A stretch of DNA of 55,842 nucleotides from Planctomycetota bacterium (GTDB lineage Bacteria; Planctomycetota; UBA11346): contig PLEW01000114.1 in NCBI GenBank assembly GCA_003136555.1, positions 1 through 55,842 of the forward strand, given 5' to 3'. Every line of letters begins with the position of its first letter. Positions within the stretch are counted from its first letter, which is position 1. The notes under the pieces were generated by a model, which saw only the letters and a list, made by a program, of their open reading frames with translations, had not been told where the DNA came from and did not search any database. Below are positions 9,598 to 36,399 of this stretch, one piece after another. The position numbers and the translations under genes were made by a program.

Positions 9598-11688
9598 ATG
9601 CCCATCCTCCTGCTGCTGCTCCTGCTCTTCGCACATGCCGTGGCCGCACGCGCCGATGAGGTCCCGCTCGCGCTGAAAGCCGCCGGGCACCATGACGTCG
9701 AGGTCACCCGGCCGGATGACGCATCCTGGCAGATCACCGCCACCGGCACCGATCCGTGGGTGGGGAGCGTGCCCATGGCCGCCGCCATCGACCTGTCGCG
9801 CACGCCGATACTCACCTTCGAGTACATCAGCATCACCGGCATCGATGACCTGCAGGTGTTCATCGGAGAGCCGTGGTCGGAGGAGAGCAGCGTCCATGCC
9901 GGAGCGATGGCGCCAAGGCAGGGCTGGTCCGAGATCAGCATCGAACTGGCGCAGCCGAAGGCGATCAGGCAGCTGCGCCTCGATTTCGGCGACAGGGCCG
10001 GGGCGGTGGTGCAGGTGCGCAAGCTGCGCCTGCGGCCACGCAACGCCCAGGAGGGCGACGCGGCGGCGCGCGAGGCCAGACGCGTGGCCGGCGAGCTGGA
10101 GCTCGCAGCCGCACTGCGCAGCTACCTGCAGCATCCCTACGCCAGCCAGCTCGAGCGCATCGTCGTGGCTAGCGACACGGTGGAGATCAGCGGCACGGCA
10201 GCCGGGGATGGGGTATCGCTGGCGGAATGGCCGCTGTGGATGCCGCTGATCTCCCCACTCCACCTCGGCACGCTCTACGATCTCCATGCCGGTACGGCAG
10301 GCGCCTTCCGCCTCAGTCTGCCGCGTCGGTCCCAGGGCCTCGACCGCGCGCTGTCGCGCTGGGTGCTGGTGCGCCGTTCGCCGGGCGGCGACGAGCTGGT
10401 GTCGCATGCACGCTGGAGCGATGCGGTGCCGGCCGCCAGCTCGCTGCCGGAGATGGTGCCGCGCAGCAAGAAGGGACTCGGGGGCTTCCATGCCGGCATG
10501 CGCGACAGCGATCTCGACGAGCTGGGCATCGCGGCGGTGACGGTCAACATCTCCCTGGCGCAGCTGCTCAAGGCCGATGCCTCCGCAGGCACCTTCGATG
10601 CCGTGCACCAGGAGCGCACCTGGCACTTCTCGCGCGATGCCGTCGCGCATCTCGATGCCACCATGCTGGCGGCCGCCAAGCGCGGCATCGTGGTGCTGGC
10701 GATCATCCTGGTCGACAAGGCCCAGAACTGGGCGAGCCCCGAGCTCGGGCGCATCTTCCAGCATCCCGACTATCGCGCACCCGGTGTCTTCTCGATGCCG
10801 AATGTCACCAGCGCGGAGGGGGTGGCAGGCTACGCCGCGATGATGGACTTCCTCGCCGAGCGCTATGGCCGCGCCGATGGCCTCTATGGCCGCATCCACC
10901 ATTGGATCATCGGCAATGAGGTCGATATGGGATGGGATTGGACGAATTGCGGGCAGCGCCCGGAACTGGTCTATATCGACCAGTATTACAAGGCCCTGCG
11001 CATCGCCTTCTGCCAGGCCCGCCGGTACGACCCGCACGCCCGCGTCTACATCAGCCTGACCCAGTGGTGGAACCAGACCGGCGACCCCGCCCATTGCTAT
11101 CCGGCGCATGCGCTGCTCGATGATCTCTCGGCGCTGAGTACGGCGGAGGGGGACTTCGACTGGGGTGTGGCCTACCATCCATATCCCGATTCGCTTTTCG
11201 AGCCGAAGAGCTGGCTCGACAAGTCCGCGCTGTTCGCCAGCGACTCCCCCAAGATCACCTTCCGCAACATCGAGGTGCTGGAGGCCTGGGCACAGGCGCC
11301 GCGCAACCGCTACCTGGGCCGCACCGTGCGCAGCATCCATCTCAGCGAACAGGGGCCGAATTCGCGTGATTACACCCCGCAGGCGCTTGCCGAGCAGGCG
11401 GCGTCGATGGCCTATGTGTGGAAGAAGATCAGCGTGCTGCCGAGCATCGAGTCGTTCGAATACCATAACTGGGTGGACAATCGCGGAGAAGGTGGGCTGC
11501 GCATCGGCTTGCGGCGCTTCCCTGACGATGCCCAGGAGCCCTTTGGCGCCAAGCCGGTATGGCAGGTCTACCGCGCGCTCGGGACGAAGGACGAGGATGC
11601 GGCGTGCGCCTTCGCGCTGCCGATCATCGGCATCGCCACCTGGGACGAGGTGCTTCAGCGCTCGCTGGTCGACGCGCCCCGCCGCTGA
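9598..11688 (+). CDS. Secreted DUF5722-like TIM-barrel protein, putative glycosidase
   Basis: A 696-residue protein starting with a clear signal peptide (a run of seven Leu followed by FAHAVAARA). The C-terminal two thirds resemble the DUF5722 group, a clan A-like TIM barrel: WIIGNEVDMG places Glu441 where the acid/base Asn-Glu pair is expected, and HLSEQGPN gives Glu584 as candidate nucleophile. The N-terminal 250 residues look like two beta-sandwich modules. Action on an extracellular glycan is inferred from fold and export, not proven. The frame is open upstream to 9412, with another ATG at 9541; 9598 was chosen because it directly precedes the signal peptide, but no good ribosome binding site is seen. 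Confidence 0.78.
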   Translation: MPILLLLLLLFAHAVAARADEVPLALKAAGHHDVEVTRPDDASWQITATGTDPWVGSVPMAAAIDLSRTPILTFEYISITGIDDLQVFIGEPWSEESSVHAGAMAPRQGWSEISIELAQPKAIRQLRLDFGDRAGAVVQVRKLRLRPRNAQEGDAAAREARRVAGELELAAALRSYLQHPYASQLERIVVASDTVEISGTAAGDGVSLAEWPLWMPLISPLHLGTLYDLHAGTAGAFRLSLPRRSQGLDRALSRWVLVRRSPGGDELVSHARWSDAVPAASSLPEMVPRSKKGLGGFHAGMRDSDLDELGIAAVTVNISLAQLLKADASAGTFDAVHQERTWHFSRDAVAHLDATMLAAAKRGIVVLAIILVDKAQNWASPELGRIFQHPDYRAPGVFSMPNVTSAEGVAGYAAMMDFLAERYGRADGLYGRIHHWIIGNEVDMGWDWTNCGQRPELVYIDQYYKALRIAFCQARRYDPHARVYISLTQWWNQTGDPAHCYPAHALLDDLSALSTAEGDFDWGVAYHPYPDSLFEPKSWLDKSALFASDSPKITFRNIEVLEAWAQAPRNRYLGRTVRSIHLSEQGPNSRDYTPQALAEQAASMAYVWKKISVLPSIESFEYHNWVDNRGEGGLRIGLRRFPDDAQEPFGAKPVWQVYRALGTKDEDAACAFALPIIGIATWDEVLQRSLVDAPRR

Positions 11689-12209: not shown

Positions 12210-14135
12210 ATGGTACCAGGTGTGCCGAAAAGGCCCTCACCCGGAGGCGCCACGGTATCTGCGAGCGTCCTCATGACCGTCCTGCAACTCCTCTCCGTCA
12301 CCCTCGCCCTGTGCACTCTTCGCGCATCGGCCTGGTGCGCGGCTGACACCACCCTCTGGCGCATCGGTACGCCCGACGATGCGAGTCAGGAATTCAGCGA
12401 CTTCCATCAGGCCGATCCGGAGGTGGTGGAGATCCCGGCGGGTACCGCCCAGCTGCCCGGGACGGGCATCTCCAAGGGTCTGCGGGCATCCTCCAATCCC
12501 AGCATGGACATCCGCTTCACCCTCCCCGCCATCCCCGCGCACGGGGTGCAGTTCTCCTTCAAGCTGCTCAAAGCCGAGAAGTCCGGTGCCCAGATGGCGG
12601 TGCTGGCCAATGACCTGATGGCCGGGCTCGTCCAGCTGTGGGGCACCACGGGTTCGAAGAGCCCGTATGCGTGGAAGCGCACCTACCGCCTCTATGTCCC
12701 GAAAGAGCTGCTCAAGCAGGGGGCGAACGTCCTGCGCCTGCGTTCCATCCGCCCGCTGTGGAGCGATGCCAGCGTTGATGCGCACTGCTGGTGGGAATGG
12801 GACTATCTCCAGCTCGATGCCCTGGGCGAGGAGGCGCGCGAACCCATCCATGGCAGCGTCGCCTACCTCGGCACCACGATGAAGAACAGCTCACGCGACT
12901 TCAAGGTCGACGATGACACCCTGCATATCGCGCCCATCGCCTTCACCTGGATGGGCATCGCCTACAGCGGCAACACCATCAGGGCCGACTTCTGGTATGA
13001 TGTCGGCAACCAGCAGCCGCGACGGCTGGAATACCTCACCCTGTGCCGCGATCTCAACCTCAGCGTGGATGTCGACTACATCGGCGGCGGGCACTTCAAG
13101 CTCGATGCCGATGGCCACCTGCCGCAGCGCCACCAGGAAGACCTCAAGCACTTCTTCGCCACCTACGGCAGCCTCTTCCAGTACTACGAGCTGTGCAACG
13201 AGCCATGCATGTTCGGCGGTGACTACGCGGCCACGCTCGAGCTCGCACGCCTGGTCAACAGCCTGAAGCCCGCCCATGTCAAGACCACGGCCTGCGGCTG
13301 GGCCTATGGCGGCGGCAAGGGCACGCCCAAGAATTGGGATGCCAATCCCGACAACCGGCGCGCCATCGAGGACCTCTGCCAGGCCACCGACGGCCACTCC
13401 TACGGCTACTCATACGCCGATGATCGCGGGGGCAGCTTCATCGAGAATCTGGCCACCTGCCGGGGGGTGGTGGACGGCTGGCCCAAGGAATACGTCAACA
13501 CCGAGACCGGCACCAACAACTGGCATTCGGAGGCCAATGGCACCCATTTCGCCTCGACCCAGCCAAAGGCCCAGGCGTTCGACCGCATCCTGCGGGCGCA
13601 TATCGCGGTGGTCGACCGGACTATGCAGCATGCTGCCATATTCGACGACTTCGGGCTCTTCGATGCGCCCGATTGGAAGGACCTCTCGACCCTCACGGCC
13701 TTCGCCGCCGCCGATGGGCCGATGGGGGACACGCGGCTGAAGACCTATCGCCGGCTGGCGCTCGCCTATGCCACCCATGGCACGCCGCTGAGCTACACCT
13801 TCGCCGACCGCACCCAGGTCGCCGACCGGCTGATCTACGTCCGTGCCGTCGATACCTCAGGCATCCCCGCCTTGCCGGGCAGCGGTGCGGTCTCCAACCG
13901 GCTGCTCATCAACCTGGTGAACTTCGAGAACGCCCCGCACCATGTCGCGGTCGCCGTCACCATGCCGAAGGCGGGCACCTATGCCGGCATGCGCATCGGC
14001 GCCGGCATGACCTGGGCCGCCGCCCATAGCGACGTGTCGCTGGCCGCCTCGCCGACGGTCGCCATCGATGAACAGCTCGCTGCCGGCGAAGCGGTGCAGT
14101 ACGTGCTCTCGCCGCCTGCTGCCGCCAAGCCCTAG
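12210..14135 (+). CDS. Secreted clan A-like glycoside hydrolase with N-terminal CBM-like domain
   Basis: About 641 residues. After a hydrophobic export segment (LLSVTLALCTLRASAWCA) comes a beta-sandwich resembling the third domain of family 4 polysaccharide lyases (LWRIGTPDD...WKRTYRLYVPKELL). A TIM barrel follows: YELCNEPCM puts Glu331 at the acid/base position, and VNTETGTN gives Glu432 as candidate nucleophile, the usual pair for clan A retaining glycosidases. A beta-rich C-terminal domain closes the chain. Family and substrate are not assigned. Starts at 12168, 12210 and 12273 are all in frame; 12210 was chosen because it gives a positively charged n-region before the hydrophobic core, but none has a good ribosome binding site. 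Confidence 0.75.
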   Translation: MVPGVPKRPSPGGATVSASVLMTVLQLLSVTLALCTLRASAWCAADTTLWRIGTPDDASQEFSDFHQADPEVVEIPAGTAQLPGTGISKGLRASSNPSMDIRFTLPAIPAHGVQFSFKLLKAEKSGAQMAVLANDLMAGLVQLWGTTGSKSPYAWKRTYRLYVPKELLKQGANVLRLRSIRPLWSDASVDAHCWWEWDYLQLDALGEEAREPIHGSVAYLGTTMKNSSRDFKVDDDTLHIAPIAFTWMGIAYSGNTIRADFWYDVGNQQPRRLEYLTLCRDLNLSVDVDYIGGGHFKLDADGHLPQRHQEDLKHFFATYGSLFQYYELCNEPCMFGGDYAATLELARLVNSLKPAHVKTTACGWAYGGGKGTPKNWDANPDNRRAIEDLCQATDGHSYGYSYADDRGGSFIENLATCRGVVDGWPKEYVNTETGTNNWHSEANGTHFASTQPKAQAFDRILRAHIAVVDRTMQHAAIFDDFGLFDAPDWKDLSTLTAFAAADGPMGDTRLKTYRRLALAYATHGTPLSYTFADRTQVADRLIYVRAVDTSGIPALPGSGAVSNRLLINLVNFENAPHHVAVAVTMPKAGTYAGMRIGAGMTWAAAHSDVSLAASPTVAIDEQLAAGEAVQYVLSPPAAAKP

Positions 14136-16202: not shown

Positions 16203-17066
16203 ATGCCGAGCGGACGCACGCTGCCCCGATGCGTCATGGTGCACATCCCGCTGATCCTGGCGCTGCTGCTGCTGGGCCGCACGCTCCCCAGCGTCGAGCC
16301 CGCTTCTGGTGCGGCGCCGGCCCGCCATCCGGCCTGGGCGGTGGAGGTCGGTGACGATCAGTTCGGACGCTGGGCCGATGTGGCGGTAGGCGGCGTGCGC
16401 CAGCGCATGCGCTGGATCTCGGCCGGCATCTTCACCATGGGCAGCCAGCCGGGAGATCCCGAGGCCGAGAAGAGCGAGACGCCGCACCAGGTGACCCTGA
16501 GCAGGGGCTTCTGGCTGGCGGACAGCGAATGCACCCAGGGGCTGTGGCGGGTGGTGATGGGCAGCAATCCCGCGCAGGTGACCGGCGATGCCCAGCGACC
16601 GGTCGAGCGGGTGAGCTTCAGCGATGTGCAGGACTTCTGCCGCCAGCTCAACGAGACGACACACCAGCACTGCTTCACCATCCCGAGCGAGGCGCAGTGG
16701 GAGTTCGCCTGCCGGGCGGGCTCATCAGCCCCCGCGCCCGCCAGCGCCCTGGATGGCGGCGCCTGGTATGGCGGCAACAGCGGCGGCGTCACGCATGCGG
16801 TGAAGACCAAGGCGCCGAATGCATGGGGGCTCTATGACATGCTTGGCAACGTCAGCGAATGGTGCTCGGACTGGCTGTGGGACTATCCGACCGATGCGGT
16901 GACCGATCCGGCGGCTCCGACTGCCGCCCTGGTGCGCGTGGTGCGCGGCGGCAGCTGGGATTCCGAGGCCAAGTGCTGTCGTGCCGCTTTTCGCAGCGGT
17001 GTGGACCCTGGCCTGCATGTCGGCCTGGTGGGCTTCCGCATGTGCGCCATGGCGCTGGAGCCGTGA
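16203..17066 (+). CDS. Secreted SUMF1/FGE-fold protein
   Basis: A 287-residue protein with a Sec signal peptide and the formylglycine-generating-enzyme (SUMF1) fold: FTMGSQPGD, PVERVSFSDVQDFC, IPSEAQWEFACRAG, WGLYDMLGNVSEWCSDW and RVVRGGSWDS appear in the usual order. The GGSW segment lacks the Cys pair pattern of true sulfatase-activating FGE, so it is more likely a structural or binding member of the family. No sulfatase is nearby. A ribosome binding site AGGAGA at 16190-16195 decides the ATG at 16203 over an in-frame one at 16182. A second member lies at 53.6-54.5 kb. Confidence 0.85.
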   Translation: MPSGRTLPRCVMVHIPLILALLLLGRTLPSVEPASGAAPARHPAWAVEVGDDQFGRWADVAVGGVRQRMRWISAGIFTMGSQPGDPEAEKSETPHQVTLSRGFWLADSECTQGLWRVVMGSNPAQVTGDAQRPVERVSFSDVQDFCRQLNETTHQHCFTIPSEAQWEFACRAGSSAPAPASALDGGAWYGGNSGGVTHAVKTKAPNAWGLYDMLGNVSEWCSDWLWDYPTDAVTDPAAPTAALVRVVRGGSWDSEAKCCRAAFRSGVDPGLHVGLVGFRMCAMALEP

Positions 17067-17084
17067 TCCGCTGGGCATTCGCCG

Positions 17085-17903
17085 TCAGGAGCGGGCGTCG
17101 GCTGCGGCATCCCGCATGCGGGCGCAGTCCTCGAGGAGGATGTCGATGCCCCGGGCGAGCGCCTCGTTGATGTCGGCGAGCGGGCATCCCGGTGGCGAGG
17201 GCTTGACTCCACCAAGCGTGCCTTCCTGCGTCCCCGGGCCGCTCATCGGACAGCCGTGCTCCCCGGCGATGACGCAGGGGACGGTGCCGGTGCTGCAACC
17301 GCGGCGCATCGCCACCAGGGTGATGGTGAGGTCCCACACCCTGCCCGCATCGATGGTGCAATAGAGCCGCTGCCGCGGTCGGTGCAGGACGTCGCCGATG
17401 AGGAAGTCGAACTCGTCCTCGGTCACGCCGCGCGCATCATGTGCGTTCGGCACCGAGCCGAAGCGTCGCCGGCCCTGGCGGAACTCATGCCGGCTGCTGT
17501 GGGTCCAGCCCATCACCGTCAGCAGGATGGCATGCAGTTCCTCGAGGCCGAGGTCGCTTGGGACCAGGACGATCCGCCACACAGGAGGCAGAGAACCGGT
17601 GAGTGCGATGCGCAGCTCGCAGCAGCCCATGGCAGGCAGGGCGGACGTCGCCGGCGTCGCCGCGGTAGTACGGCCGCCGTCGTGCGGCGGCTCACGCTCG
17701 ATGGCGCGGAGCGGCTGATGGTTGGATGCGCGTGCTGACGCCGGGCGGGACGGCGAGCGGACCTTGCCGGGAGCGAACATCAGCGCGGTCAGCCGGCCCA
17801 GCACCGAGCAGTCCAGCCGGCGCTCGCTCTCTGGGTGGAGCAAGGTCGCCTGGTGCACAGCAGCAGAGGCTGGCGTGGAGAGTGCGCTGACGTGATGCAG
17901 CAT
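17085..17903 (-). CDS. PRiA4_ORF3-like (plasmid pRiA4b ORF-3) domain protein
   Basis: A predicted 272-residue protein. The region of about residues 95-200 matches the PRiA4_ORF3 domain: LRIALTGSLPPVWR, then LEELHAILLTVMGW and the SRHEF segment. The domain occurs in plasmid- and transposon-linked proteins and in chromosomal proteins of unknown function. The first ~70 residues are low-complexity and an internal start is possible. The ATG lies only three bases after the stop of the small gene upstream, so the two form an operon. It converges with the SUMF1 gene. Confidence 0.7.
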   Translation of the reverse strand: MLHHVSALSTPASAAVHQATLLHPESERRLDCSVLGRLTALMFAPGKVRSPSRPASARASNHQPLRAIEREPPHDGGRTTAATPATSALPAMGCCELRIALTGSLPPVWRIVLVPSDLGLEELHAILLTVMGWTHSSRHEFRQGRRRFGSVPNAHDARGVTEDEFDFLIGDVLHRPRQRLYCTIDAGRVWDLTITLVAMRRGCSTGTVPCVIAGEHGCPMSGPGTQEGTLGGVKPSPPGCPLADINEALARGIDILLEDCARMRDAAADARS

Positions 17904-17906
17904 GGA

Positions 17907-18116
17907 TCAGTCCGGGTCTGCGGGATGGTGTCCGAGGGCGGGGTCGGGATGCTGAGCGGCGGGCGCCTCCTCCGCCCCGGGGTGAGCGCCCATTGCATGG
18001 AGGCGCTTGAGCCGGAGATTGACCCGCCGGATCAGCTGGGTCGCCTCGTGTTCGCAGGTGGAACGGAGGTCATCATCGGACGTGCCAGATCGAGGGGCGC
18101 GGTGCGTGGTCGTCAT
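17907..18116 (-). CDS. Small protein of 69 residues, first gene of an operon
   Basis: A short frame with an excellent ribosome binding site: GAGGAGA six bases before the ATG. The product is hydrophilic, with a helical middle (QLIRRVNLRLKRLHAMG) and a Pro/His/Asp-rich tail ending ALGHHPADPD. No family was recognised. It sits directly upstream of the PRiA4_ORF3-like gene. Its leader shares a 26-base element and the same ribosome-binding sequence with the small gene at 23864-24064, which is of almost equal length and also has a PxLGH segment in its tail. Confidence 0.65.
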   Translation of the reverse strand: MTTTHRAPRSGTSDDDLRSTCEHEATQLIRRVNLRLKRLHAMGAHPGAEEAPAAQHPDPALGHHPADPD

Positions 18117-18198
18117 GACGGTCTCCTCGTCGGTTGGATCACCCGCCATGATATGCGGAGCAGCGGCAGGTCGCATCCTGTTGACCGAGAGCCGTGTC

Positions 18199-18224
18199 CG
18201 CTGTGTGGTACCATCCCTGTCAAT
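18199..18224 (-). promoter_or_regulatory. Repeated upstream element, copy 1
   Basis: On the minus strand this reads ATTGACAGG, three variable bases, GGT, two variable bases, CACACAGCG. It lies 82 bases upstream of the ATG of the small gene. A second copy matching at all 21 fixed positions lies 79 bases upstream of the other small gene at 24.1 kb. It contains a perfect TTGACA, but no TATAAT-like hexamer follows at the normal distance. Confidence 0.55.
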
Positions 18225-18375
18225 TGGCTGACTACTGTGGTGGTCGGTATCCCTTGCGTCCGTTCCCGAAATGGTGCGCAACCCACATCACCACAGGGGT
18301 CTCCATGGCCATCCCCGGCGGCTCTTGCCGGCGCTGATCGGCAGCCGCAGCGGCACGGGCCCGCACCGGGGTCGG

Positions 18376-19617
18376 TCAGCTGATGGCCACCGCTCTGCGC
18401 CGCTGACCAAGCAGCAGGATGGCCATGCCGATCGCCGCCATGACCGTGACCACGGCGATGATCGGCGCGACGGTATGCGCATCGAGCAGCCCCACCGCCG
18501 CCGAGGCGGTGGCGGAAATGCCCACCTGCAGAAAGCCGAGCAGGGCCGAAGCGCTGCCGAGGTTGTGGTTGATGGGGGAGAGCGCCAGGGCGGTGGCGTT
18601 GGGATTGGTGAAGCCCAGGCAGGCGAGCAGCGCGAACAGCAGGGCGATGGTGGGCACCAGGCCGTACCAGCCCTGCGCTGCACCGCAGGCGAAGACCAGG
18701 CCGATCAGGAGCTGGCCGGTCAGGGCGGTGGCGAAGATGCGCTCGCTGCTGACATGCCGCGAGACCAGGATGTTGAGGTTGCTGCCGCCGATGAAACCGA
18801 CGGAAAGGATGGCGAAGATCACCCCGTAGGTCCTGGCGCCGACATGGAAGTTCTCCATGAAGATGATGGGCGAGCCCGCGACATAGACGAACAGTCCGGA
18901 GAAGGAGCACGCGCCCGCGAGAGCGTAGGTGCGGAAGCGCGGTTCGGCGAAGATGGTGGCGAAGGTGGCGATGATCTGCTTCGGCCGCAGGACCACCGTC
19001 AGATCGGCCTGATAGCCGACCGGCAGGAGCACCGCGGTGATCGCCAGGATCACCGCCGCGATCGCCGCCAGGAGGAAGAACACCCACGGCCACCCGAGGC
19101 TGGTGGCGATCAGGCTGCCGAAGGTGGGGGCGAGCAGCGGAGAGACCCCCAGGATCAGCAGCAGCATGGAGAAGATCCGCGCGCTGTCCGCTGCCGGGAA
19201 GAAGTCGCGCACCATCGCCACGGTCGCCACCTGCGCGACGCAGCCGCCAAGCGCCTGGAGGAAGCGCAGGGCGACCAGGATCTGGACCGATGGCGCCTCC
19301 ACGCACGCCAGCGAGGCGAGGATGTAGACGCCCAGCCCGACGTAGATGGGAGGCTTGCGCCCGTAATGATCGAGCAGCGGGCCGTAGAACAGCTGGCCGA
19401 GCGCCATGCCGACGAAATAGCTGGCCAGCGACAGGGAGATCTGCGCGTTGCTGCAGTTCAGCGCATGGGCGATCTGCTGGTAGGCCGGCAGGTACATGTC
19501 GATGGAGAACGGGGTGACGGTGAACAGGGCACCCAGGATGAGGATGACCTGCCGCCGCTGCGATGGGGCCAGTGGTTTCGGCGTCGTGGCATGGTCGGGA
19601 AGGGAGGGCAGGCTCAT
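18376..19617 (-). CDS. Bcr/CflA-type multidrug efflux transporter (MFS)
   Basis: A 413-residue inner-membrane protein with about twelve transmembrane segments. It matches the Bcr/CflA drug-resistance group of the major facilitator superfamily: FSIDMYLPAYQQIA in the first helix, GMALGQLFYGPLLDHYGRKP as the loop 2-3 MFS signature, and FLQALGGCVAQVATVAMVRDFF in the fourth helix region. It should export drugs or small amphiphiles by proton antiport. An ATG at 19617 was preferred to the upstream frame opening at 19650; no strong ribosome binding site is visible. Confidence 0.88.
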   Translation of the reverse strand: MSLPSLPDHATTPKPLAPSQRRQVILILGALFTVTPFSIDMYLPAYQQIAHALNCSNAQISLSLASYFVGMALGQLFYGPLLDHYGRKPPIYVGLGVYILASLACVEAPSVQILVALRFLQALGGCVAQVATVAMVRDFFPAADSARIFSMLLLILGVSPLLAPTFGSLIATSLGWPWVFFLLAAIAAVILAITAVLLPVGYQADLTVVLRPKQIIATFATIFAEPRFRTYALAGACSFSGLFVYVAGSPIIFMENFHVGARTYGVIFAILSVGFIGGSNLNILVSRHVSSERIFATALTGQLLIGLVFACGAAQGWYGLVPTIALLFALLACLGFTNPNATALALSPINHNLGSASALLGFLQVGISATASAAVGLLDAHTVAPIIAVVTVMAAIGMAILLLGQRRRAVAIS

Positions 19618-19733
19618 GGCGGGGGTGGGCTGCTGGGCGGCGGCGGGCACAGCCGGCCGCTTCTCTTAGCCGCTGGCGCAGCTGGGGCCAGCGGCACCCC
19701 CGGAGCCGCGCCGCCTGGCGGGAGGGCGCGCCC

Positions 19734-20588
19734 TCAGGGCTGGCCGATGGCATCCAGCATGGCGATGCCGAAACGGGTGCGGAAGCCGCTGCCCTCCTCC
19801 GCCAGATTGAGCATGAGCTGGTCGCCGCCAGCGCTGAAGATGCCGTCCTGGGCATTCAGGCGGTCGCGCGTCCCGCGGTGCGCATAGGGAGGTTCGGCAT
19901 AGATGCGGTCGGAGAGCGCATCCGGGAAGTAGAGCTGGCTGGTGAAGGTGCGATGGACGCCCTGCTCTGCCCACCGGACCTTGATATGGATGTGCACCGT
20001 GCGGCCATGGTACCAGCCGGGATATATGGTGGTGAAGCGTGCCAGACCCGTGGCATCGGTACGCTGGAAGCCGCGCAGGAAACGGCGCTGAGGAACCGGC
20101 ACGCTGTCATCGCGGGGATTCGAGTAGCGCCCCTCGGCATCGCTGTGCCACATATCGATGCGGGCATCCTCCAGCGGCTGCGACGTCGCTCCGTGGCCGA
20201 GCTGCACCGTCTGCAGCGCGATGGTGAGCGGCACGCCCGGGGTCGTTCCGCCGAGCGGATCGAGGCGGATGTCCGAGCGCTCCAGCGTGCCATCGACGAA
20301 GAACGGCCCCTCGGTCTGCTGCGGGCGGACCAGGCAGGCGGCAAAGTCCCCGGCATTCCCCGCCCTGGCGGTGGATGGGGACGGGGACGGGGACGGAGAT
20401 GCGGATGCGGCGGGCGGCGTGGCCGTCGAGCAGCCGAAGAGCATGCCCAGTCCAACCGCGCCGACGGTGGCGACCAGCTCACGGCGGCTGACTACCCGAC
20501 CGATGGGGCGGTCGTCTTCATGGTCGTCGGCGCTCGCATCGGCCAAGCGGCGAGTGGGAGGGTGCGGCTCGGGGAGGGGTGCGGTCAT
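19734..20588 (-). CDS. Intradiol ring-cleavage dioxygenase, predicted Tat lipoprotein
   Basis: A 284-residue protein whose C-terminal domain is of the intradiol dioxygenase family (catechol/protocatechuate type). GRYSN with Tyr155, PGWYHGR with Tyr193, and HIHIK with His199 and His201 match the two-Tyr, two-His ferric iron site. Before it are a twin-arginine signal (VVSRRELVATVGAVGLG), a lipobox-like FGC at Cys53 and a Ser-Pro linker encoded by GGGGAC repeats. The enzyme should therefore be exported and anchored, unlike the usual cytosolic enzymes. AGGAG lies nine bases before the ATG. No other aromatic degradation gene is near. Confidence 0.85.
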   Translation of the reverse strand: MTAPLPEPHPPTRRLADASADDHEDDRPIGRVVSRRELVATVGAVGLGMLFGCSTATPPAASASPSPSPSPSTARAGNAGDFAACLVRPQQTEGPFFVDGTLERSDIRLDPLGGTTPGVPLTIALQTVQLGHGATSQPLEDARIDMWHSDAEGRYSNPRDDSVPVPQRRFLRGFQRTDATGLARFTTIYPGWYHGRTVHIHIKVRWAEQGVHRTFTSQLYFPDALSDRIYAEPPYAHRGTRDRLNAQDGIFSAGGDQLMLNLAEEGSGFRTRFGIAMLDAIGQP

Positions 20589-20706
20589 GGCTGCGGCTCC
20601 TGCGGGTTCGCGATCGGGCTCGGGCTGGACAGCGATTCTGCGGCCACCAGATGACAATCCGATGATGCCCAGAGCCGGCCCCTGCCGGGGCGCGCCCCCA
20701 GCCCGG

Positions 20707-21747
20707 CTAGGGGCTGCGGCGGGGCGTCAGCTGGAGGTCGGTCTCGGCCCAGCGGCGCAGGCCGGCGATCGATTGGGGTTCGGCTGAGGAGTCATGGGTC
20801 AAGTCGTGCAGGACCAGGAGGGAGAACAGACTCGCGGCGATCTCGTTGGGGTGGAAGATCTCATCCGAAGGCGCGAAGGCCTTGATGTAGGGGGCGACGT
20901 CATGCAGGGGCTGGTGCAGCGGCTCGCCATCTGCGCCCTTCTGGTAGGAGAAGGAGTCACCGCTCTTCACCAGGGGGTAGGCCACCTCGTCGAAATCCCC
21001 CGGCATCGCGGGTACGGGTTCCTGCGAGTTCAGCACCACCTGCGGCTGGATCCAGCTGACCGACGGACCCTGGTAGAGCGGGAAGGCCCACACCGCATCG
21101 ATGCCGTCCGGATTGACGATCTGGTGCGCGCGCTGCTCGGCGGTTGGTACCGGGGCATGCGGCAGGCGGAGGAAGCCCCAGGTAGCGGTGTAGAGATGCG
21201 CGAATGGTTCGGGATGCAGGCGCTGGATGACATGCAGCTGCTCATGGGCGAGGATGCTGGGGCCATAGAAGTTGCTCTCCCCGCCCATGGCCTTGAAGCT
21301 CCTGATCATCCTGTCGCTCAGGACGATGCTCTGCCCGCGCGTATGCGGCATGCCGCCTTCGAAGGAGGCGGCGAGCTTGATGAACGACCAGGGCTGCGAG
21401 GCATACAGCGGATAGCGCGCCACCACCGGGGAGAGCGTGGCGATGGCCGCGCGCAGGATGCGCTGCTCATCGGCGGTGAAGTCCTGGACCGCCTGCTGGT
21501 AGCGCAGCCTGCAGGCGCTGCGCTGCTCCTCCACGTTGCTGCCGGGGAGGACCGAACCGGACTTCGCCGCCATCTCGCGCGGTTCCAGGCGCGAGAAGTA
21601 CGGCTCGATGCTCTCATCGATGATGGCCGCACGTGCCAGGTCGCCGTTCAGGAAGCTGATCACCTCGGCGGCGGACACCCTCGCCAGCCCCGCGGCGAGG
21701 CAGAGCAGCGCTGCGAGAAGGTGGAGACCTGAGCGTCGGCTGGCCAT
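20707..21747 (-). CDS. Secreted HExxH protein, putative metallopeptidase
   Basis: A 346-residue protein with a good Sec signal peptide (SGLHLLAALLCLAAGLARVSAA). HEQLH at residues 168-172 matches the zinc-metallopeptidase HExxH motif, in a helix context (ILAHEQLHVIQRLHP) that is consistent with zinc binding. The rest does not match a family that can be named here. Aromatic and Pro-rich stretches follow. The substrate is unknown and peptidase activity is inferred from the motif alone. Starts at 21762 and 21747 are both possible; 21747 gives the more compact signal peptide. Confidence 0.7.
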   Translation of the reverse strand: MASRRSGLHLLAALLCLAAGLARVSAAEVISFLNGDLARAAIIDESIEPYFSRLEPREMAAKSGSVLPGSNVEEQRSACRLRYQQAVQDFTADEQRILRAAIATLSPVVARYPLYASQPWSFIKLAASFEGGMPHTRGQSIVLSDRMIRSFKAMGGESNFYGPSILAHEQLHVIQRLHPEPFAHLYTATWGFLRLPHAPVPTAEQRAHQIVNPDGIDAVWAFPLYQGPSVSWIQPQVVLNSQEPVPAMPGDFDEVAYPLVKSGDSFSYQKGADGEPLHQPLHDVAPYIKAFAPSDEIFHPNEIAASLFSLLVLHDLTHDSSAEPQSIAGLRRWAETDLQLTPRRSP

Positions 21748-21981
21748 GGTGGGATCGACCATGGGCGAGAGGGTAGGCGGTCACGCCGATGGCGCCATCA
21801 TCGCGATGACCCCGCACCGGCGGCAGAGCGGGGGGGGCTGACGCCTACGGCAGCGGCCCACGCAGGTGCGGATGGGACATTCGGGCGCTCTCCGGCGGTG
21901 CCTGCCCGAGCAAGGGCACGGTGCGAGCGCTGCTCGCGGCCAGCTGCGTTCCGGCAGCGCCGCCCGCTCGCCCCCGCTGCG

Positions 21982-22407
21982 CTAGGGGTTCTTTTTCTTC
22001 TTCTTGACCGCCGACAGCTGGTCGACGGAATCGACCTGCTCGGCGGTGAAGGTGACGCGTACCGTCTGGGTGGTCGATATCGAGGTGAGATCGACGTCAT
22101 GCAGATCGATGGTCGCCTCGGTTTTGCGCGTGACCTTGAGCTTGGTGACCGTGCCCTTTCCATCGGTCAGTGTCAGCGCCTTGTGGTCGGCCGACAGGCT
22201 GATGATGCCGAAGACGACCAGGGTGTCGGCTCCGCTTGCGGCATCCGCCTTGGTCGAGCCGCTGGCCGGCGCCCCGCTTGGGGCAGGCGCTGCCGCTGGC
22301 GCGGGAGCTGCGGCGGGCGCGGGAGAAGGCGTGATCGGAGTATCCGATGCGAGCGCCGGCCCGATCAGCAGGATGCTCGCTCCGATGGTCAGCAGGATGC
22401 TCGCCAT
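21982..22407 (-). CDS. Small secreted protein with Ala-Pro linker
   Basis: A 141-residue protein with a signal peptide (ILLTIGASILLIGPALA), an Ala/Pro repeat linker from about 28 to 50, and a beta-rich C-terminal domain ending in a Lys run (VKKKKKNP). The C-terminal domain (DTLVVFGIISLSADHKALTL, TKLKV, TVRVTF) looks like a small OB- or SH3-like barrel; no named family was assigned. GGAG lies about six bases upstream of the ATG, which supports the start. Confidence 0.65.
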   Translation of the reverse strand: MASILLTIGASILLIGPALASDTPITPSPAPAAAPAPAAAPAPSGAPASGSTKADAASGADTLVVFGIISLSADHKALTLTDGKGTVTKLKVTRKTEATIDLHDVDLTSISTTQTVRVTFTAEQVDSVDQLSAVKKKKKNP

Positions 22408-22743
22408 GTGATCTCCGCTCCATGCAGCATAGCCGCGGGTGCCTCGACCTGGGTGTGGTGAATCCCGCCACCGCGGATCACCGTGTGGTGTGGGCGTCAA
22501 CACGAGGCAGGGCAAGCGGGGCATGCAAGAATCTGTCGTGATTGGCGTTACGAGCGCGGTCGATGCCGATACCCGACACTGGACCACGGAGCCAGATGGT
22601 GAGGGAGCGGTCCACGCCGCGCCGGGAGGGGAACTGTCGAGCGCAGATTTTTCGCTAACTGGCTCTGCGACAAGGGATTGATGCCAGGAAACCGGTCTTG
22701 GCGTTACTCCCGGGGCGGGTAGCGTGGCGGCGAGGTGTGGACC
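22408..22743. other. 336-base divergent intergenic region
   Basis: This region separates the small secreted protein from the divergent DNA methyltransferase gene and must hold both promoters. No gene, strong promoter pair or clear repeat was recognised. Confidence 0.4.
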
Positions 22744-23817
22744 ATGTCCAGGGAATCAGGCGCTGGCAGGACGGCACGCGCGACGCCATCACCCAGCACG
22801 GTCGGCCGTGGCAAGGCCATAGTCCTGCCGCGGCGGGCGACCCCGGAAGCAACCTATGTCGATGCCTGGGTGAGCTTGCAGCGAGCCGACTGCCAGGACT
22901 GCTATGCAGGCTGGCAGCGCCCGGCGGCGATCATCTCCGATGGCGCCTATGGGATCCTGGGCTTCGAGGGCGACACCTCCGACCATCTCGATCTGCCGCT
23001 CTGGTATGAGCCGCATATCCGCGCGTGGTCGGCGGCCGCCGAGGCGCATACCACCTTGTGGTTCTGGAATTCGGAGATCGGCTGGGCTGCGGTGCACCCG
23101 GTCCTCGAGCGCCATGGCTGGCGCTACGTGAATGCCAATGTCTGGGACAAGGGCAAGGGCCACATCGCCGGCAATGTGCACACCGCCAAGATCCGGCGCT
23201 TCCCGGTCGTCACCGAGCTCTGCGTGCAGTATGTGCGTGAGCAGACCATGCACGGCATGCCCTTGAAGCGCTGGCTGCTCAGCGAGTGGAAGCGCTCCGG
23301 CTTGCCGTTGAGCCGGGCGAACGATGCCTGCGGTGTCGCCGACGCGGCGGTGCGCAAATACTTCGACCAAGGCCATCTCTGGTACTATCCGCCGGTCGAC
23401 AAGTTCGAGCGCATCGTCCGCTATGCGAATCAGCACGGCCGTGCGCTGGGCCGACCGTACTATTCCCGCGATTCCAAGCGGCCCATGACCGGCGCTGAAT
23501 GGGCGCGCTGCCGCTCGGCGTTCCGCTGCCCGCATGGGGTCACCAATGTCTGGAGCCGCCCGCCGCTACGTGACGGGGAGCGGCTCAAGGCCCCGCATGG
23601 GCGGGCGGTCCATCTCAACCAGAAGCCGATTGATCTGATGACGCGCATCATCGCTGCGTCGACCGAGCCCCAGGAGGTCGTCTGGGAGCCGTTCGGCGGC
23701 CTGTTCTCGGCCTCGCTGGCAGCACGGGCGCTGGACCGGCGCAGTTTCGCGGCCGAGATCGACGACACCTACTTCCGCTATGGCGTGCAGCGCTTCACAG
23801 TGCTATCGCGGGGGTGA
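22744..23817 (+). CDS. Site-specific DNA methyltransferase, orphan, DGAYG type
   Basis: A 357-residue DNA-modification methyltransferase. The catalytic motif IV is DGAYG at residues 66-70 in place of the usual DPPY, and motif I is WEPFGGLFSAS near the C-terminus, so the order is that of the beta class (catalytic motif first). TTLWFWNSEIGWAAVHP, HIAGN and NQKPIDLMTRIIAAST are features of a known group of amino-methyltransferases with this variant motif. It should methylate adenine N6 or cytosine N4 at an unknown site. No restriction gene is adjacent. The ATG at 22744 was chosen because GAGGTG lies six bases upstream. Confidence 0.85.
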   Translation: MSRESGAGRTARATPSPSTVGRGKAIVLPRRATPEATYVDAWVSLQRADCQDCYAGWQRPAAIISDGAYGILGFEGDTSDHLDLPLWYEPHIRAWSAAAEAHTTLWFWNSEIGWAAVHPVLERHGWRYVNANVWDKGKGHIAGNVHTAKIRRFPVVTELCVQYVREQTMHGMPLKRWLLSEWKRSGLPLSRANDACGVADAAVRKYFDQGHLWYYPPVDKFERIVRYANQHGRALGRPYYSRDSKRPMTGAEWARCRSAFRCPHGVTNVWSRPPLRDGERLKAPHGRAVHLNQKPIDLMTRIIAASTEPQEVVWEPFGGLFSASLAARALDRRSFAAEIDDTYFRYGVQRFTVLSRG

Positions 23818-23863
23818 CCGCATATCCTTCCAGCTCACACCGTGCAGCACCCGACGATGCCGC

Positions 23864-24064
23864 TCAGCAGTCCGGCTCGGTGAGGGTGACGGGTTCCTCG
23901 GCATGCCCAAGCGGCGGAGAATGGTCAGGCATGGGCCGCCTGACGGGAGATGAGCGGCTGCGCTCCGCCATCGGCAGGGCGTGGGTGAGCGCCTGCTGGT
24001 CGCTCGGCTCGGCGCTCTCCAGCTCCAGATCGACGATGCGACGGGGCCGGTTGGCTATCGCCAT
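23864..24064 (-). CDS. Small protein of 66 residues
   Basis: A short frame with a very strong ribosome binding site, GGAGGAGA, before the ATG. The product is hydrophilic and unclassified, with Arg-rich patches and a tail containing PPLGHAEEPVTL. It is convergent with the methyltransferase, 46 bases away. Length, translation signal (GAGGAGACCG then YC and ATG) and the 26-base upstream element are shared with the 69-residue gene at 17907-18116, though the proteins align only weakly. Confidence 0.6.
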   Translation of the reverse strand: MAIANRPRRIVDLELESAEPSDQQALTHALPMAERSRSSPVRRPMPDHSPPLGHAEEPVTLTEPDC

Positions 24065-24518
24065 GGCGGTCTCCTCCTCGGGTGGTGCCGATAACGAGGT
24101 CGCGGCGACCCACCGGCGTCGCTCCCGTGGCTGCCAGGCGCAGCGCTGTGTGCCACCGCGCCTGTCAATCCGATGACGGGCGGGTGGTCGCGAGGGTGGT
24201 GGCACAAGGGGTTGCATCGGTCGTGGCCTGCCCCGCCCGAGTGGTTGCACGCCGCCCTGACGGTACGCTCGCTGGTCGATCGTCATCTGGCCTCGCGCCC
24301 CATCACCGGCGCGCGCAGGGACCATGCATGGTGAGCGTTGCAGGGTCTCGCAGCGCACCGATACCGGTGGGCGAACCGACTCCCGAGAGTGCGATAATTC
24401 ATCAGAATGGTGCTTGAGCCTGACCGCATCAGACGATAATCACCGCGTGCGCATACTGCGACAAACCACATCCGGTGCAGCTCCCGATGGATACATCCGC
24501 ACATGGATTGGCGCTGCG
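24065..24518. other. 454 bases without a gene
   Basis: This interval lies between the small gene and the large protease gene. It holds the second copy of the repeated upstream element near its left side. Two GATAAT hexamers occur near 24393 and 24435; TTGAGC at 24414-24419 with a 15-base gap to the second is a weak promoter candidate for the protease. Nothing else was recognised. Confidence 0.4.
24144..24169 (-). promoter_or_regulatory. Repeated upstream element, copy 2
   Basis: This has the same fixed positions as copy 1: ATTGACAGG, GGT and CACACAGCG with identical spacing, 79 bases upstream of the ATG of the 66-residue gene. The five variable positions and the flanks differ, which argues against a recent duplication of the whole region and for selection on the element. 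Confidence 0.55.
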
Positions 24519-27500
24519 ATGGCGGTCGCGGCCCGGCCCATGGCACGGGTGAGCTGGTGGTCGCGCTGCCAGTTGGCGGCACCGCTCCTGGCCGTCGCCA
24601 TGCTGCTGGCCCTGGGCACTCAGCTGGCGGCCGCAATGGTCGAGGAGGAGGGCATCCCCGTCGCTGCTACGGTCGACCTGGCCAGCCCCCGGGCCAAGAT
24701 CAGCTCCGCCATCCGCGCCTTCATCGACGTCCCGGTCCCGCCCCAGGGCATCGATGCCCGGCTGCGCAGCCTGACCGTCCCGGCCAGCCGGCCGGATCTC
24801 CTGCGCGTGCGCCTGGATGTCCCGGTCACGCCGGCGACCACCGCTGCGGTCGCGGCCACCGGCGCGCGCATCCTGTCGACTGCGGCGCGCTGGAACGCCG
24901 TGCTGGTCGAGGCGACCATGGCCCAGATCGATGCCCTGGCCCTGCTGCCGGATGTGCGGCTGATCGCGCCGGCGCTGCGGCCCCACACGCATGGGCAGTC
25001 GGTGACCGCCCAGCCCGGGAACTACACCGATCCGGCGGATACCGTCATCCACACCGACCAGGTGCGGTCGACCTATCAGACCGCCGGCGCCGGCATGACC
25101 GTGGGCATCATCTCGGATTCGATCAACGCCAGCAGCACGGTCGGGGCTGGCTCCGTGGCGGGCAGCGCGCCCGGGACATTGACCGGCACCAACCCGCAGG
25201 CCAACGGCAACCTGCCGGCCTCGATCATGGTGTGCAACATCGGCGATGTCGGCGGTTCGACCGACGAGGGCGAGGCGATGATGGAGGAGGCCTACCACCT
25301 CGCCTCCGGGGCGGCCTTCGCCTTCGCGCCCTGCGGCAGTGCCGATACCGACATGGCGAGCAACATCGGCCTGCTGAAGACGCAGGCAGGTTGCGCGATC
25401 ATCTGCGACGACATCAGCTACCTCGATGAGCCGTTCTTCCAGGACGGCCCGATCGCCCAGGCCGCGAGCGAATTCGTCCAGGGCGGCGGCATCTACCTGA
25501 CCGCAGCCGGCAACAATGCCAATACCTGCGCGCTCGCCACCTACATGCCGGTGGTCTCCACCACGGGCGGGCATAACGCCAAAGGAGCGCCCAATGGCAA
25601 CTCCTTCCATAATTGGGGGGTCAACGGGTCGACGGCGCCGGGATACCTCCCGCTGGTCGTCCAGGGCGGCGCCACCATCGAGGTCATCCTCCAGTGGAAC
25701 CAGCCGTTCCAAAGCTGGGGCCTGGGCAGCGGCTCCGCGTCCGACTTCAACCTCTGGCTCTACAAGACGGCCTCCACCACCTCGTCGATCACCTCGAGCA
25801 CCACGGTGCAGGGGACGGCGGCCGCGCCATCCGGGGATCCCTTCGAGATCATCCAGTACAAGAACGGCGGCTCCTCGAATGCGACGGTCTACCTGGCGGT
25901 CGATTACTTCGGCGGTGTCAGCACCGCCCAGGTGATGCGCGTGCTGGTATTCACGGATGGATATAGCGTGACCTCGCCCGGCAATACGGTCCTGAGCTTC
26001 GGCACCTCGATGGGCCATGCGACGACCAGCAACGTGCTCGCCATCGCGGCGATGGACTATTCGGCCTCGCCCTATGCGGTAGAGCCGTTCAGCTCCCTGG
26101 GCGGCTGGGGCTCGACGGGCATCCCCTACTACTACTCGACCACCGGACAGCTGCTCTCAGGTGCGCCGCAGCGGCGCAACAAGCCCGATATCACCGCACC
26201 CGACGGGGTGTCGGTGTGGAATGCGAACTTCCAGCCCTTCTACGGCACCTCCGGCGCCACGCCCCATGCCGCGGCCGCGGCGGCATTGTCATGGGCCGTC
26301 CAGCCGACCTTCACCAACCTCCAGATCATCGCCGCCCTGCAGGCCTCGGCCACCGACATCACCACCGCCCCCGCCTCGACTGGACCGGATCCGTGGTCCG
26401 GGTACGGCCTGGTGAATGCCTTCGCCTCGATCGGGACGACCCTCACCAGCGTCTCCTCGGTGACCACCAGCTCCGCGAACGGCACCTATTATACCGGCAC
26501 CATCCCCATCCTCGTGACCTTCACCAATCCGGTGACCGTCAGCGGGACGCCAGTGCTGCAGCTGAACACCACGCCATCGGCATCGGCCACCTATGCCTCG
26601 GGCAGCGGCTCCGCCACGCTCACCTTCAACTACCTCATCCAGCAGGGGCAGATGTCCGCGGCCCTCGACGTCGCAAGCACAGCGGCGCTCAGCGGTGGCT
26701 CGCTCGCCAGCGGCAGCATCCCGGTGTCGCTGACCCTGCCGAGTCCGGGTAGCCGAGGGTCCCTCTCGGCGAATGCGTCGATCCAGATCGATGGCAAGGG
26801 GACGCAGACCATCACCTTCCCCGCCATCGCCAATCAGATCTATGGCGCGACGCTGCCGCTCTCGGCAAGCGCCAGTTCGGGATTGGCACCGGCCTTCAGC
26901 ATCGTCAGCGGACCGGCGACGCTGAACAACGCGATGCTCACCTGCACCGGCCTGGGCACGGTGATCGTCGCCGCCGACCAGGCGGGAAATGCGTCCTGGC
27001 TGGCGGCGCCGGAGGTGCGTCAGCAGTTCACGGTCACGGCCGCGCCCGACACCATCATCCTCCCGGCGACCACCACCGTGGTCTACAGCGCGAGCCCCAG
27101 CAGCGTCATGCCGACCATCACCGGCCCGTCGTCCCCGGTGGCGAGCGTGAGCTACCAGCCCTACTCGGGGAATCCCGCAGCGGGCGGGAGCGCCACCGGT
27201 TCTGCCACGGCCACGCCGCCGACCGATGTCGGCTGGTACCGGGTGACGGCGAGCCTCGATGCCAATCATGGCGGCGGCTCGGCGAGCGGGAGCCTCGACA
27301 TCACCCCGGCCCTGCTGACCGTCACAGCGGTATCAAAGACCATTACCGTCGGCAGCGCCCCGGGGCCGCTGAGCGCAACCATGGCCACCTTCCTGGGCAG
27401 CGACACTGCGGCCGTGGTCTCCGGCAGCGCCGCCTTGTCGACCACCGCGAGCGCCACGAGTCCCGCCGGTGTCTATCCCATCACCGTCTCGGTAGCCGGA

Positions 27501-27953
27501 CTGTCGGCCGCCAACTACACCTTCCAGGGGGTCAACGGGACGATCACCATCGGACTCGTGAGCCAGACCATCAGCTTCGCCAATCCCGGTGCTCCGTCCG
27601 CCGGTTCCGACCAGGTCGCCCTGGTGGCGACAGCGACCTCAGGACTCGGCGTGTCGTTCTCCGTCCTCAGCGGCCCGGCCACCGTGCAGGCTTCGCAGCT
27701 GACCTTCACCGGTGCGGGTACGGTGGTGGTGGCTGCCAACCAGGCGGGCAACAGCGTCTACCAGCCGGCCCCTGAGGTGACCCAAACGATCGTGTTGACC
27801 CAGCAGTCAGCGGGATCGGCTGCCGCCCCGGCTGCCGCAGCGGGAGGTGGTGGGGGAGGGGGGTCATGCGGCCTGGGATCGGGCGTGAGCGCCTTGGCGC
27901 TGACGCTGTTCGTGCTCCTGCGCCTCCTGCCCGTGCGCCTGCGCCCCCGCTGA
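24519..27953 (+). CDS. Large S8/S53-like serine protease with Ig-like repeats and C-terminal anchor
   Basis: An 1144-residue exported protein. The protease core has GIISDSI with Asp200, GGSTDEGEAMMEEAYH with Glu250/Glu252 where subtilisins carry HGT, and GTSGATPHAAA with Ser578 as nucleophile. This arrangement belongs to an S8/S53 (sedolisin-like) group rather than classical subtilisin. From about residue 640 there are several Ig-like or MBG-type repeats (for example QTITFPAIANQIYG). The end is a Gly run, SCGLGSG, a hydrophobic helix and an Arg-rich tail, a CTERM-like sorting or anchor signal. The start is the ATG before the hydrophobic signal segment; upstream in-frame codons to 24324 look noncoding. 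Confidence 0.82.
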   Translation: MAVAARPMARVSWWSRCQLAAPLLAVAMLLALGTQLAAAMVEEEGIPVAATVDLASPRAKISSAIRAFIDVPVPPQGIDARLRSLTVPASRPDLLRVRLDVPVTPATTAAVAATGARILSTAARWNAVLVEATMAQIDALALLPDVRLIAPALRPHTHGQSVTAQPGNYTDPADTVIHTDQVRSTYQTAGAGMTVGIISDSINASSTVGAGSVAGSAPGTLTGTNPQANGNLPASIMVCNIGDVGGSTDEGEAMMEEAYHLASGAAFAFAPCGSADTDMASNIGLLKTQAGCAIICDDISYLDEPFFQDGPIAQAASEFVQGGGIYLTAAGNNANTCALATYMPVVSTTGGHNAKGAPNGNSFHNWGVNGSTAPGYLPLVVQGGATIEVILQWNQPFQSWGLGSGSASDFNLWLYKTASTTSSITSSTTVQGTAAAPSGDPFEIIQYKNGGSSNATVYLAVDYFGGVSTAQVMRVLVFTDGYSVTSPGNTVLSFGTSMGHATTSNVLAIAAMDYSASPYAVEPFSSLGGWGSTGIPYYYSTTGQLLSGAPQRRNKPDITAPDGVSVWNANFQPFYGTSGATPHAAAAAALSWAVQPTFTNLQIIAALQASATDITTAPASTGPDPWSGYGLVNAFASIGTTLTSVSSVTTSSANGTYYTGTIPILVTFTNPVTVSGTPVLQLNTTPSASATYASGSGSATLTFNYLIQQGQMSAALDVASTAALSGGSLASGSIPVSLTLPSPGSRGSLSANASIQIDGKGTQTITFPAIANQIYGATLPLSASASSGLAPAFSIVSGPATLNNAMLTCTGLGTVIVAADQAGNASWLAAPEVRQQFTVTAAPDTIILPATTTVVYSASPSSVMPTITGPSSPVASVSYQPYSGNPAAGGSATGSATATPPTDVGWYRVTASLDANHGGGSASGSLDITPALLTVTAVSKTITVGSAPGPLSATMATFLGSDTAAVVSGSAALSTTASATSPAGVYPITVSVAGLSAANYTFQGVNGTITIGLVSQTISFANPGAPSAGSDQVALVATATSGLGVSFSVLSGPATVQASQLTFTGAGTVVVAANQAGNSVYQPAPEVTQTIVLTQQSAGSAAAPAAAAGGGGGGGSCGLGSGVSALALTLFVLLRLLPVRLRPR

Positions 27954-30916: not shown

Positions 30917-31819
30917 TCACGCGCCCCTGGCCCCCTGCCCGCCCAGGGGCGGGGATCTCGCCGGCCTGCGCACCCGCGCGCTGCGGAACGTGCCCGGGGA
31001 TGCACCCGCATGCGTGCGGAACCAGCGGCAGAAGTAGGCGGACTGGCTGAAGCCGCACTGGCGGGCGACCACCGCCACACGCTCGCCGGTGTTGGCCAAG
31101 AGGGCGCGTGCTTCGCGCAAGCGCGCCTGGGTGAGGTGGGCGATGATGGTCTCGCCGGTCTCCTGGCGGAACAGGCGGCTCAAGGACGCGCGATGGTAGC
31201 CGACCCGCTTGGCGATCCCGGAGATGGACAGCCCGGGATCGGCAAACTCCTGGGATATGAGATGGCGGATGCGGCCGACCAGGTCGATCGGCGGCTCGGT
31301 GCGGATGGCGTCGGCGATGCGATACCAGGCGGCGATCGCCATGAGGCTGGACCTCCGCCGCCCCTCCAGGCTGGAATCCTTCAGGCTGGCGGCCATCTCG
31401 CGCAGGTCCTCCGATGCGGGTGGCGGAACAGCGTAGATGCCGGGCTTCAGGCCGAGCTCGAGGACCACCTGCTCGGCATACGGTCCATCCGTGGTGAACC
31501 AGCACATCTCGTTGGTCGGCTCCACCGCCCAGAAGCGATGGGGGATGGTCGGCATGTAGATTGCCACTTGTCCCGGTCCGAAGGACATCCGGCGGCCCGA
31601 GACCTCCATGATGGCCGAACCGGAGAGCACCCATTTCGCCATCACCAGGCGCTGCGACCAGCTGGCGCCGAAGCGGCCGCGCGAGACCGTCACCTGCTGC
31701 ACGGTGCGCAGCGCCATCACCACCCCGCCGGGCGGGATATCGCGCCTGCGCTCGGCGGCGAGACCCGCCAGGCGCTTGGCCAGGGGTTCCTGCAGGTCGC
31801 TTGGGGAGGAGCTGGACAT
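30917..31819 (-). CDS. AraC-family transcriptional regulator
   Basis: A 300-residue regulator with an N-terminal cupin-like sensor region (MSFGPGQVAIYMPTIPHRFW) and a C-terminal AraC/XylS double helix-turn-helix from about residue 185: LSISGIAKRVGYHRASLSRLFRQETG and VAVVARQCGFSQSAYFCRWF. It probably binds a sugar or other small ligand. It is divergent from the SDR gene and may control it and itself from the 31820-32044 intergenic region. AAGGGTG precedes the ATG. Confidence 0.87.
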   Translation of the reverse strand: MSSSSPSDLQEPLAKRLAGLAAERRRDIPPGGVVMALRTVQQVTVSRGRFGASWSQRLVMAKWVLSGSAIMEVSGRRMSFGPGQVAIYMPTIPHRFWAVEPTNEMCWFTTDGPYAEQVVLELGLKPGIYAVPPPASEDLREMAASLKDSSLEGRRRSSLMAIAAWYRIADAIRTEPPIDLVGRIRHLISQEFADPGLSISGIAKRVGYHRASLSRLFRQETGETIIAHLTQARLREARALLANTGERVAVVARQCGFSQSAYFCRWFRTHAGASPGTFRSARVRRPARSPPLGGQGARGA

Positions 31820-36062: not shown

Positions 36063-36399
36063 GGCCGGACTCCTTGGTTTGCAGGTCGGCAAGGTAGGTA
36101 TCGAGACGGTCGAAGCTCGCATTCCAGAAGTGGGTGAAATGCGCGACCCAGTCGTGCATCGGCTTGAGCCCATCGCCCTGCAGGCGGTAGAGCCGCTGCT
36201 GGCCGTGGACGCGCATGTGCACGAGCTGCACGGCGCGCAGGACGCGCAAATGCTTGGAAGCCTGCGGCTGGGTGATGTGCAGGATCTCGGCGATGTCATT
36301 CACCGGGCGTTCGCCTCGGGCGAGCAGCTCGAGGATGATGCGCCGCTGGGGCTCGGCGACGGCATTGAAGACATCCGAGGTGGTCGCCAGGCGCGGCAT
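36046..36399 (-). CDS. ArsR-family winged-helix regulator
   Basis: A 117-residue regulator with the winged-helix pattern of the ArsR/SmtB group: DVFNAVAEPQRRIILELLA, then DIAEILHITQPQASKHLRVLRAVQLV and the wing HGQQRLYRL. No Cys metal site is present, so it is of the non-metal type usually paired with AHSA1 proteins, and it should repress its own operon. A strong promoter directly abuts the ATG and no ribosome binding site exists, so the transcript is probably leaderless. Confidence 0.9.
   Translation of the reverse strand: MPRLATTSDVFNAVAEPQRRIILELLARGERPVNDIAEILHITQPQASKHLRVLRAVQLVHMRVHGQQRLYRLQGDGLKPMHDWVAHFTHFWNASFDRLDTYLADLQTKESGHDPLP

Follow-up and report, generated by a model that had tools for sequence, protein, structure and literature searches.

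A probable control site shared by two small genes on a Planctomycetota contig

The window analysed here, 55,842 nucleotides of contig PLEW01000114.1 (positions 1 to 55,842, assembly GCA_003136555.1, Planctomycetota), contains two short open reading frames, A and B, each preceded by a copy of a 26-bp element and, immediately before its ATG, by the same ribosome binding segment. Both sets lie on the minus strand, with the two copies of the element about 6 kb (5.9 kb) apart. The features around them are as follows.

17085..17903, minus: PRiA4_ORF3-like gene directly after gene A (gap 6 to 51 nt, depending on the start chosen)
17910..18116, minus: small ORF A, 69 aa, one predicted helix; no relatives found, coding log-odds weakly positive
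18114..18128, minus: RBS and start segment of gene A, GAGGAGACCGTCATG, an exact match to that of gene B
18199..18224, minus: the 26-bp element, copy A, with the pattern ATTGACAGG-N3-GGT-N2-CACACAGCG, from pattern and genome searches
18219..18232, no strand assigned: proposed operator from a pattern search, an inverted repeat GTCA-N6-TGAC that overlaps copy A and reads GTCAGCCAATTGAC on the minus strand
18376-19650, minus: Bcr/CflA-type MFS gene upstream of gene A, ending about 260 nt before it
22735-23817, plus: DNA-methylase-like gene, neighbour of gene B and convergent to it
23864..24064, minus: small ORF B, 66 aa, no predicted structure; no family match, coding log-odds positive
24062..24076, minus: RBS and start segment of gene B, GAGGAGACCGCCATG, an exact match to that of gene A
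24144..24169, minus: copy B of the 26-bp element, from pattern and genome searches
24164..24177, no strand assigned: proposed operator from a pattern search, an inverted repeat GTCA-N6-TGAC that overlaps copy B and reads GTCATCGGATTGAC on the minus strand
24519-27953, plus: subtilase-like gene with an MBG domain, neighbour of gene B and divergent to it

The coding character of the two frames is modest, with codon log-odds after the ATG of 0.05 per codon for A and 0.15 for B; among 585 ORFs of 60-80 aa, 10% score as high as A and 4% as high as B. At both genes the codon score of the same frame turns from negative in the leader to positive past the ATG, and because it is negative in both leaders the element reads as non-coding. 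On the same scores we reject an in-frame N-terminal coding role for the element, through which the frames are open for 36 and 35 codons. Predictions from the single sequences give A one helix, at residues 14-43 with block means up to 97, and leave B unstructured. A search of 23 genomes with the protein of A returned no other match better than E 0.024, and Pfam, PHROGs and NCBIfam contained nothing convincing for A or B, the PHROGs and NCBIfam queries being the longer in-frame ORFs. It is thus plausible, if not proven, that both are orphan genes. Each would need its own promoter, since B is divergent to the gene at 24519-27953 and A begins some 260 nt past the end of the MFS gene. Judging from the arrangement, the PRiA4_ORF3-like gene may possibly be co-transcribed with A.

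An earlier note, made from the sequence alone, had described the element at these coordinates and proposed that it marks a small regulon, an unknown promoter class or a structured leader. Its description of the letters is accurate. The minus-strand 26-mers, ATTGACAGGGATGGTACCACACAGCG in copy A and ATTGACAGGCGCGGTGGCACACAGCG in copy B, are identical at 21 of 26 positions and end 82 and 79 nt before the ATGs of ORFs of 69 and 66 codons. Both ATGs are directly preceded by GAGGAGACCGYC, the stretch GAGGAGACCG-Y-C-ATG recurs exactly, as had been noted, and over a span of 26 bases around it the two genes agree at 22 positions. The likeness also extends upstream of the element, where each copy has GTCA ten bases ahead of its TGAC, so that the shared stretch with this palindrome included becomes GTCA-N4-ATTGACAGG-N3-GGT-N2-CACACAGCG, alike at 26 of 34 bases. 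Further upstream, at -22 and -21, lies a match of CGACCACC, separated from GTCA by N6 at one site and N5 at the other.

Whether such a likeness exceeds chance was addressed in several ways. The match of 21 in 26 is unremarkable when taken alone, as such pairs are common in this GC-rich window: 335 pairs of 26-mers reach a best score between 21 and 24, a count in which each inverted pair appears twice, and three dinucleotide shuffles gave 134, 119 and 101 pairs with at least 21 matches. These counts favour coincidence, according to which the best-looking of billions of 26-mer pairs in GC-rich 55 kb has been picked out and the matching RBS reflects nothing beyond the ordinary Shine-Dalgarno constraint. 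A joint score was therefore used in which the element and the RBS are taken in register and matches are weighted by an order-3 model. By this score the A/B pair, with the CGACCACC match counted in, is the top direct chain in the window; its 42.1 bits are reached by 3 of 200 order-3 Markov windows (Gumbel p about 0.018; mean maximum 35.7, largest 45.4). Coincidence draws further support from a chain of 40.5 bits in the same window that joins unrelated coding regions, those of a PepSY_TM gene and the MFS gene (42154-41823 and 19214-18871, minus), and that probably reflects membrane-protein codon bias. Other 56-kb sets of stretches from the same genome peaked at 36 to 55 bits, and far higher where they contain long repeats; together with the 40.5-bit chain, this warns that real sequence can exceed simulation.

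The comparison that we judged fairest draws on actual starts in the organism's own genome, each an ATG that follows a strong Shine-Dalgarno sequence and opens an ORF of at least 40 codons. It comprised 657 starts in 977,915 bases, upstream stretches with N left out, and hence 215,496 pairs. A/B ranks first among them, at 42.0 bits against 35.9 for the runner-up. When the last 25 nt are omitted A/B still ranks first, at 33.8 against 32.3 bits, so that without the RBS the lead is small. As 56 of the 657 starts belong to the window, it accounts for only 0.7% of the pairs. Coincidence is opposed by this rank, attained by two starts within the same 55 kb and on one strand, by the additional palindrome at both sites, and by the rarity of the constituent 9-mers: in 434 kb, ATTGACAGG occurs twice, at copies A and B only, and CACACAGCG three times, two of them at these copies. 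On these sequence comparisons the likeness is probably real, and we give chance something like a quarter of the weight. The central proposal of a cis-element shared by two small genes is in this respect supported.

The likeness is confined to a few blocks. Local alignment of element plus leader is significant (P 0.002), and outside the blocks no alignment rises above shuffled sequence: the 150 nt upstream of the element give P 0.26, the leader between element and RBS cannot be aligned (P 0.39), and the coding DNA and the 200 nt past the stop codon give P 0.106 and 0.77 (1000 shuffles each). That no other part of the two regions aligns is also what coincidence would predict. The proteins score no better against each other than shuffles do (P 0.57 local, 0.72 global), in agreement with the observation that most of the protein and leader differ. 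The PxLGH tail segment that had been thought common to the two proteins is present in both as letters, and it is chance-like in view of these scores. Beyond the 34-base stretch and the RBS, the rest of the leaders, the genes, the flanks and the proteins show no likeness.

These comparisons bear on a second explanation, that gene and leader were duplicated as a whole and the protein then changed quickly or by frameshift. The two genes do resemble a paralogous small-gene pair with a common upstream region in their near-equal size, their shared strand, their spacing of 5.9 kb and their identical RBS, and within the genes there are short co-linear matches, at 131/136, 262/252 and 309/294, as well as an 11-base match, out of register and out of frame, within a longer local alignment. 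They differ from such a pair in that neither the proteins nor the coding DNA are significantly similar, and the predicted structures, one helix in A and none in B, are unlike. Leaders rarely outlast proteins, which also counts against divergence of paralogues, and we consider this origin unlikely.

A third explanation does without a DNA control site and takes the element as part of an RNA leader, structured or regulatory, or as what is left of a small repeat or a mobile element. Two observations speak for it: the element and the RBS are the sole clearly alike blocks in a stretch of 105-108 nt, and copy B lies within a possible hairpin. The fold z-scores of the leaders (-0.35, -1.54, 0.10 and -1.45) are close to those of shuffles. 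The first two of these values weigh against this explanation, as the leaders of A and B do not fold significantly better than shuffles and their predicted structures are not alike. Rfam had no match in the window, neither leader matched any of 72,556 plasmid records, and the third genomic copy that a repeat family would give is absent. Together with the unalignable leader between the blocks, these results give no support to the structured leader suggested earlier, and an RNA or repeat origin appears very improbable.

The sequence of the element partly resembles known promoters. TTGACA, the sigma-70 type -35 hexamer, is contained in both copies and starts 107 and 104 nt before the ATG. It differs from a sigma-70 promoter in that the -10 hexamer is missing, the bases 17 nt downstream of TTGACA being CGGACA and CGCTGC, and a search of positions 17000-25000 for -35 and -10 hexamers 16-18 nt apart found none. 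The sigma-54 pair GG-N10-GC is likewise absent from any common place in the two leaders, each of which has one unaligned match. With neither a standard sigma-70 -10 hexamer nor a common sigma-54 pair, we infer that an alternative sigma factor or an activator may be involved.

The palindrome gives a further lead. GTCA-N6-TGAC occurs in the window only at copies A and B and 27 times in 978 kb, and its centres here are GCCAAT and TCGGAT. In PMC4641369, yGTCA-N6-TGACr is a proposed operator before an FlrA/FleQ-like activator gene of Desulfovibrio, and PMC6120874 gives GTCaNTAAAtTGAC as the FleQ consensus of Pseudomonas aeruginosa and judges it unreliable in P. fluorescens F113; the palindrome resembles the FleQ/FlrA sites proposed in these papers and in PMC8125075. 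Both copies share the inverted repeat with this type of operator. Copy A matches 11 and copy B 10 of the 13 specified bases of the FleQ consensus, which is itself disputed (PMC6120874), and matches at 10 or more of 13 number 27 across 978 kb. The sites differ from FleQ/FlrA operators in several respects: the A/T-rich centre NTAAAt is largely missing from both, the GGT and CACACAGCG blocks are not parts of such an operator, and no flagellar or exopolysaccharide genes were recognised beside the two sites. A GAFTGA-type motif like that of sigma-54 activators is present in ORFs at four places in 978 kb, about a sixth of the genome, and none of the four was identified as FleQ. The resemblance would therefore serve as a lead to the kind of regulator, by analogy, and not as an assignment.

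A regulon or a promoter class would require the element to recur, and further copies in the genome or in relatives were part of what the earlier note had made its proposal depend on. In the organism's own assembly (5.9 Mb in 253 contigs, 86% complete) a search for the 21 fixed bases returned only copies A and B at up to 3 mismatches. There is no continuum of weaker sites either: a scan of 434 kb found no site at 17-20 of 21 and one at 16 of 21, and weaker sites were no commoner than with permuted patterns. With 18 fixed bases and up to 3 mismatches the own genome gave four matches, of which two had 3 mismatches and lacked GGT, and five relatives gave five; the reversed pattern, as a control, gave none and seven, respectively. 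No copy was found in 22 relatives at up to 2 mismatches, and the 23 genomes of the family, which include the own genome and are identical with the order set, added two 3-mismatch matches, one each in two genomes (G001 and G010), about as expected by chance. Among 84,980 species the 18 fixed bases had one match, in a Bacteroidales contig at a place read as coding, and among viral contigs none, in collections that may omit the genome of the window. The proposed small regulon thus lacks a third member in the own assembly, and a single, chance-like match elsewhere gives no sign of a promoter class; as the element is in no other genome examined, nothing points to a new promoter or RNA class. Our literature searches found no paper on shared promoters before small or orphan genes.

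Taken together, the two sites are probably copies of one shared control site, and nothing found here indicates a wider regulon, a structured leader or a new class of promoter. More specifically, we lean somewhat, at a little better than even, towards a cis-regulatory module before two short, separately transcribed units. In such a module, TTGACA within the element would act as a -35-like hexamer, or adjoin one, and would be overlapped by the site of a dimer, with CACACAGCG as a second common block downstream, followed by the common RBS. A dimeric helix-turn-helix regulator could bind GTCA-N6-TGAC, whose half-sites are about one helical turn apart, and might switch both small genes together, perhaps also the PRiA4_ORF3-like gene after A, with an alternative sigma factor or an activator in place of standard sigma-70. 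A local duplication of promoter and leader may have given rise to the module; the RBS and the bound bases would then be all that is still recognisable of it, the coding parts being unrelated or diverged past recognition. Against this origin, a recent duplication would be expected to leave more similarity than is seen, and against the module itself, two copies offer nothing to judge conservation by. A bolder and rather doubtful version holds that two orphan ORFs arose or came to lie behind copies of one promoter module, newborn small genes thereby capturing the operator of a lineage-specific regulator, and that duplication of a promoter, rather than of a gene, made the co-regulated pair. If real, the module would be a small, local case of two orphan genes governed by a single control site, and could help in studying how new small genes come to be expressed.

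The contig around the two genes is poor in relatives. The genome set represents the order of the contig by one family, and within it four genes (18376-19650, 17085-17903, 22735-23817 and 32871-34463) had no relative at the first thresholds, in 7 or 22 genomes. The PRiA4_ORF3-like gene was found in none of 7 relatives, the methylase-like gene in none of 22, the Na/H exchanger gene in none of 22 at 1e-20, and the MFS gene in none of 7 at 1e-20. The MFS gene does have one family relative with 33% identity, in the genome G013, and at 1e-50 it was found in 4 of 392 genomes of a phylum sample besides the own one, at 32-34% identity. The missing relatives suggest that the contig is either accessory-rich or wrongly binned; in tetranucleotide profile it falls inside the spread of other stretches of the own genome. 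Two regulators are encoded in the window, an AraC-like one (30917-31819) and an ArsR-like one (36046-36399), with no evidence tying either to the sites; the latter overlaps an AHSA1-domain gene (35085-36062) that has two matched stretches. The contig also carries two N6_N4 methylase-like genes, at 22735-23817 (the weaker match) and at 47252-48241, beside an FHA-domain gene, and carbohydrate-related genes at 9598-11688, 12273-14135, 1004-3631 and 44560-46302, with domains that include DUF5722, polysaccharide lyase family 4, GH31 with F5/8 type C, and beta-helix.
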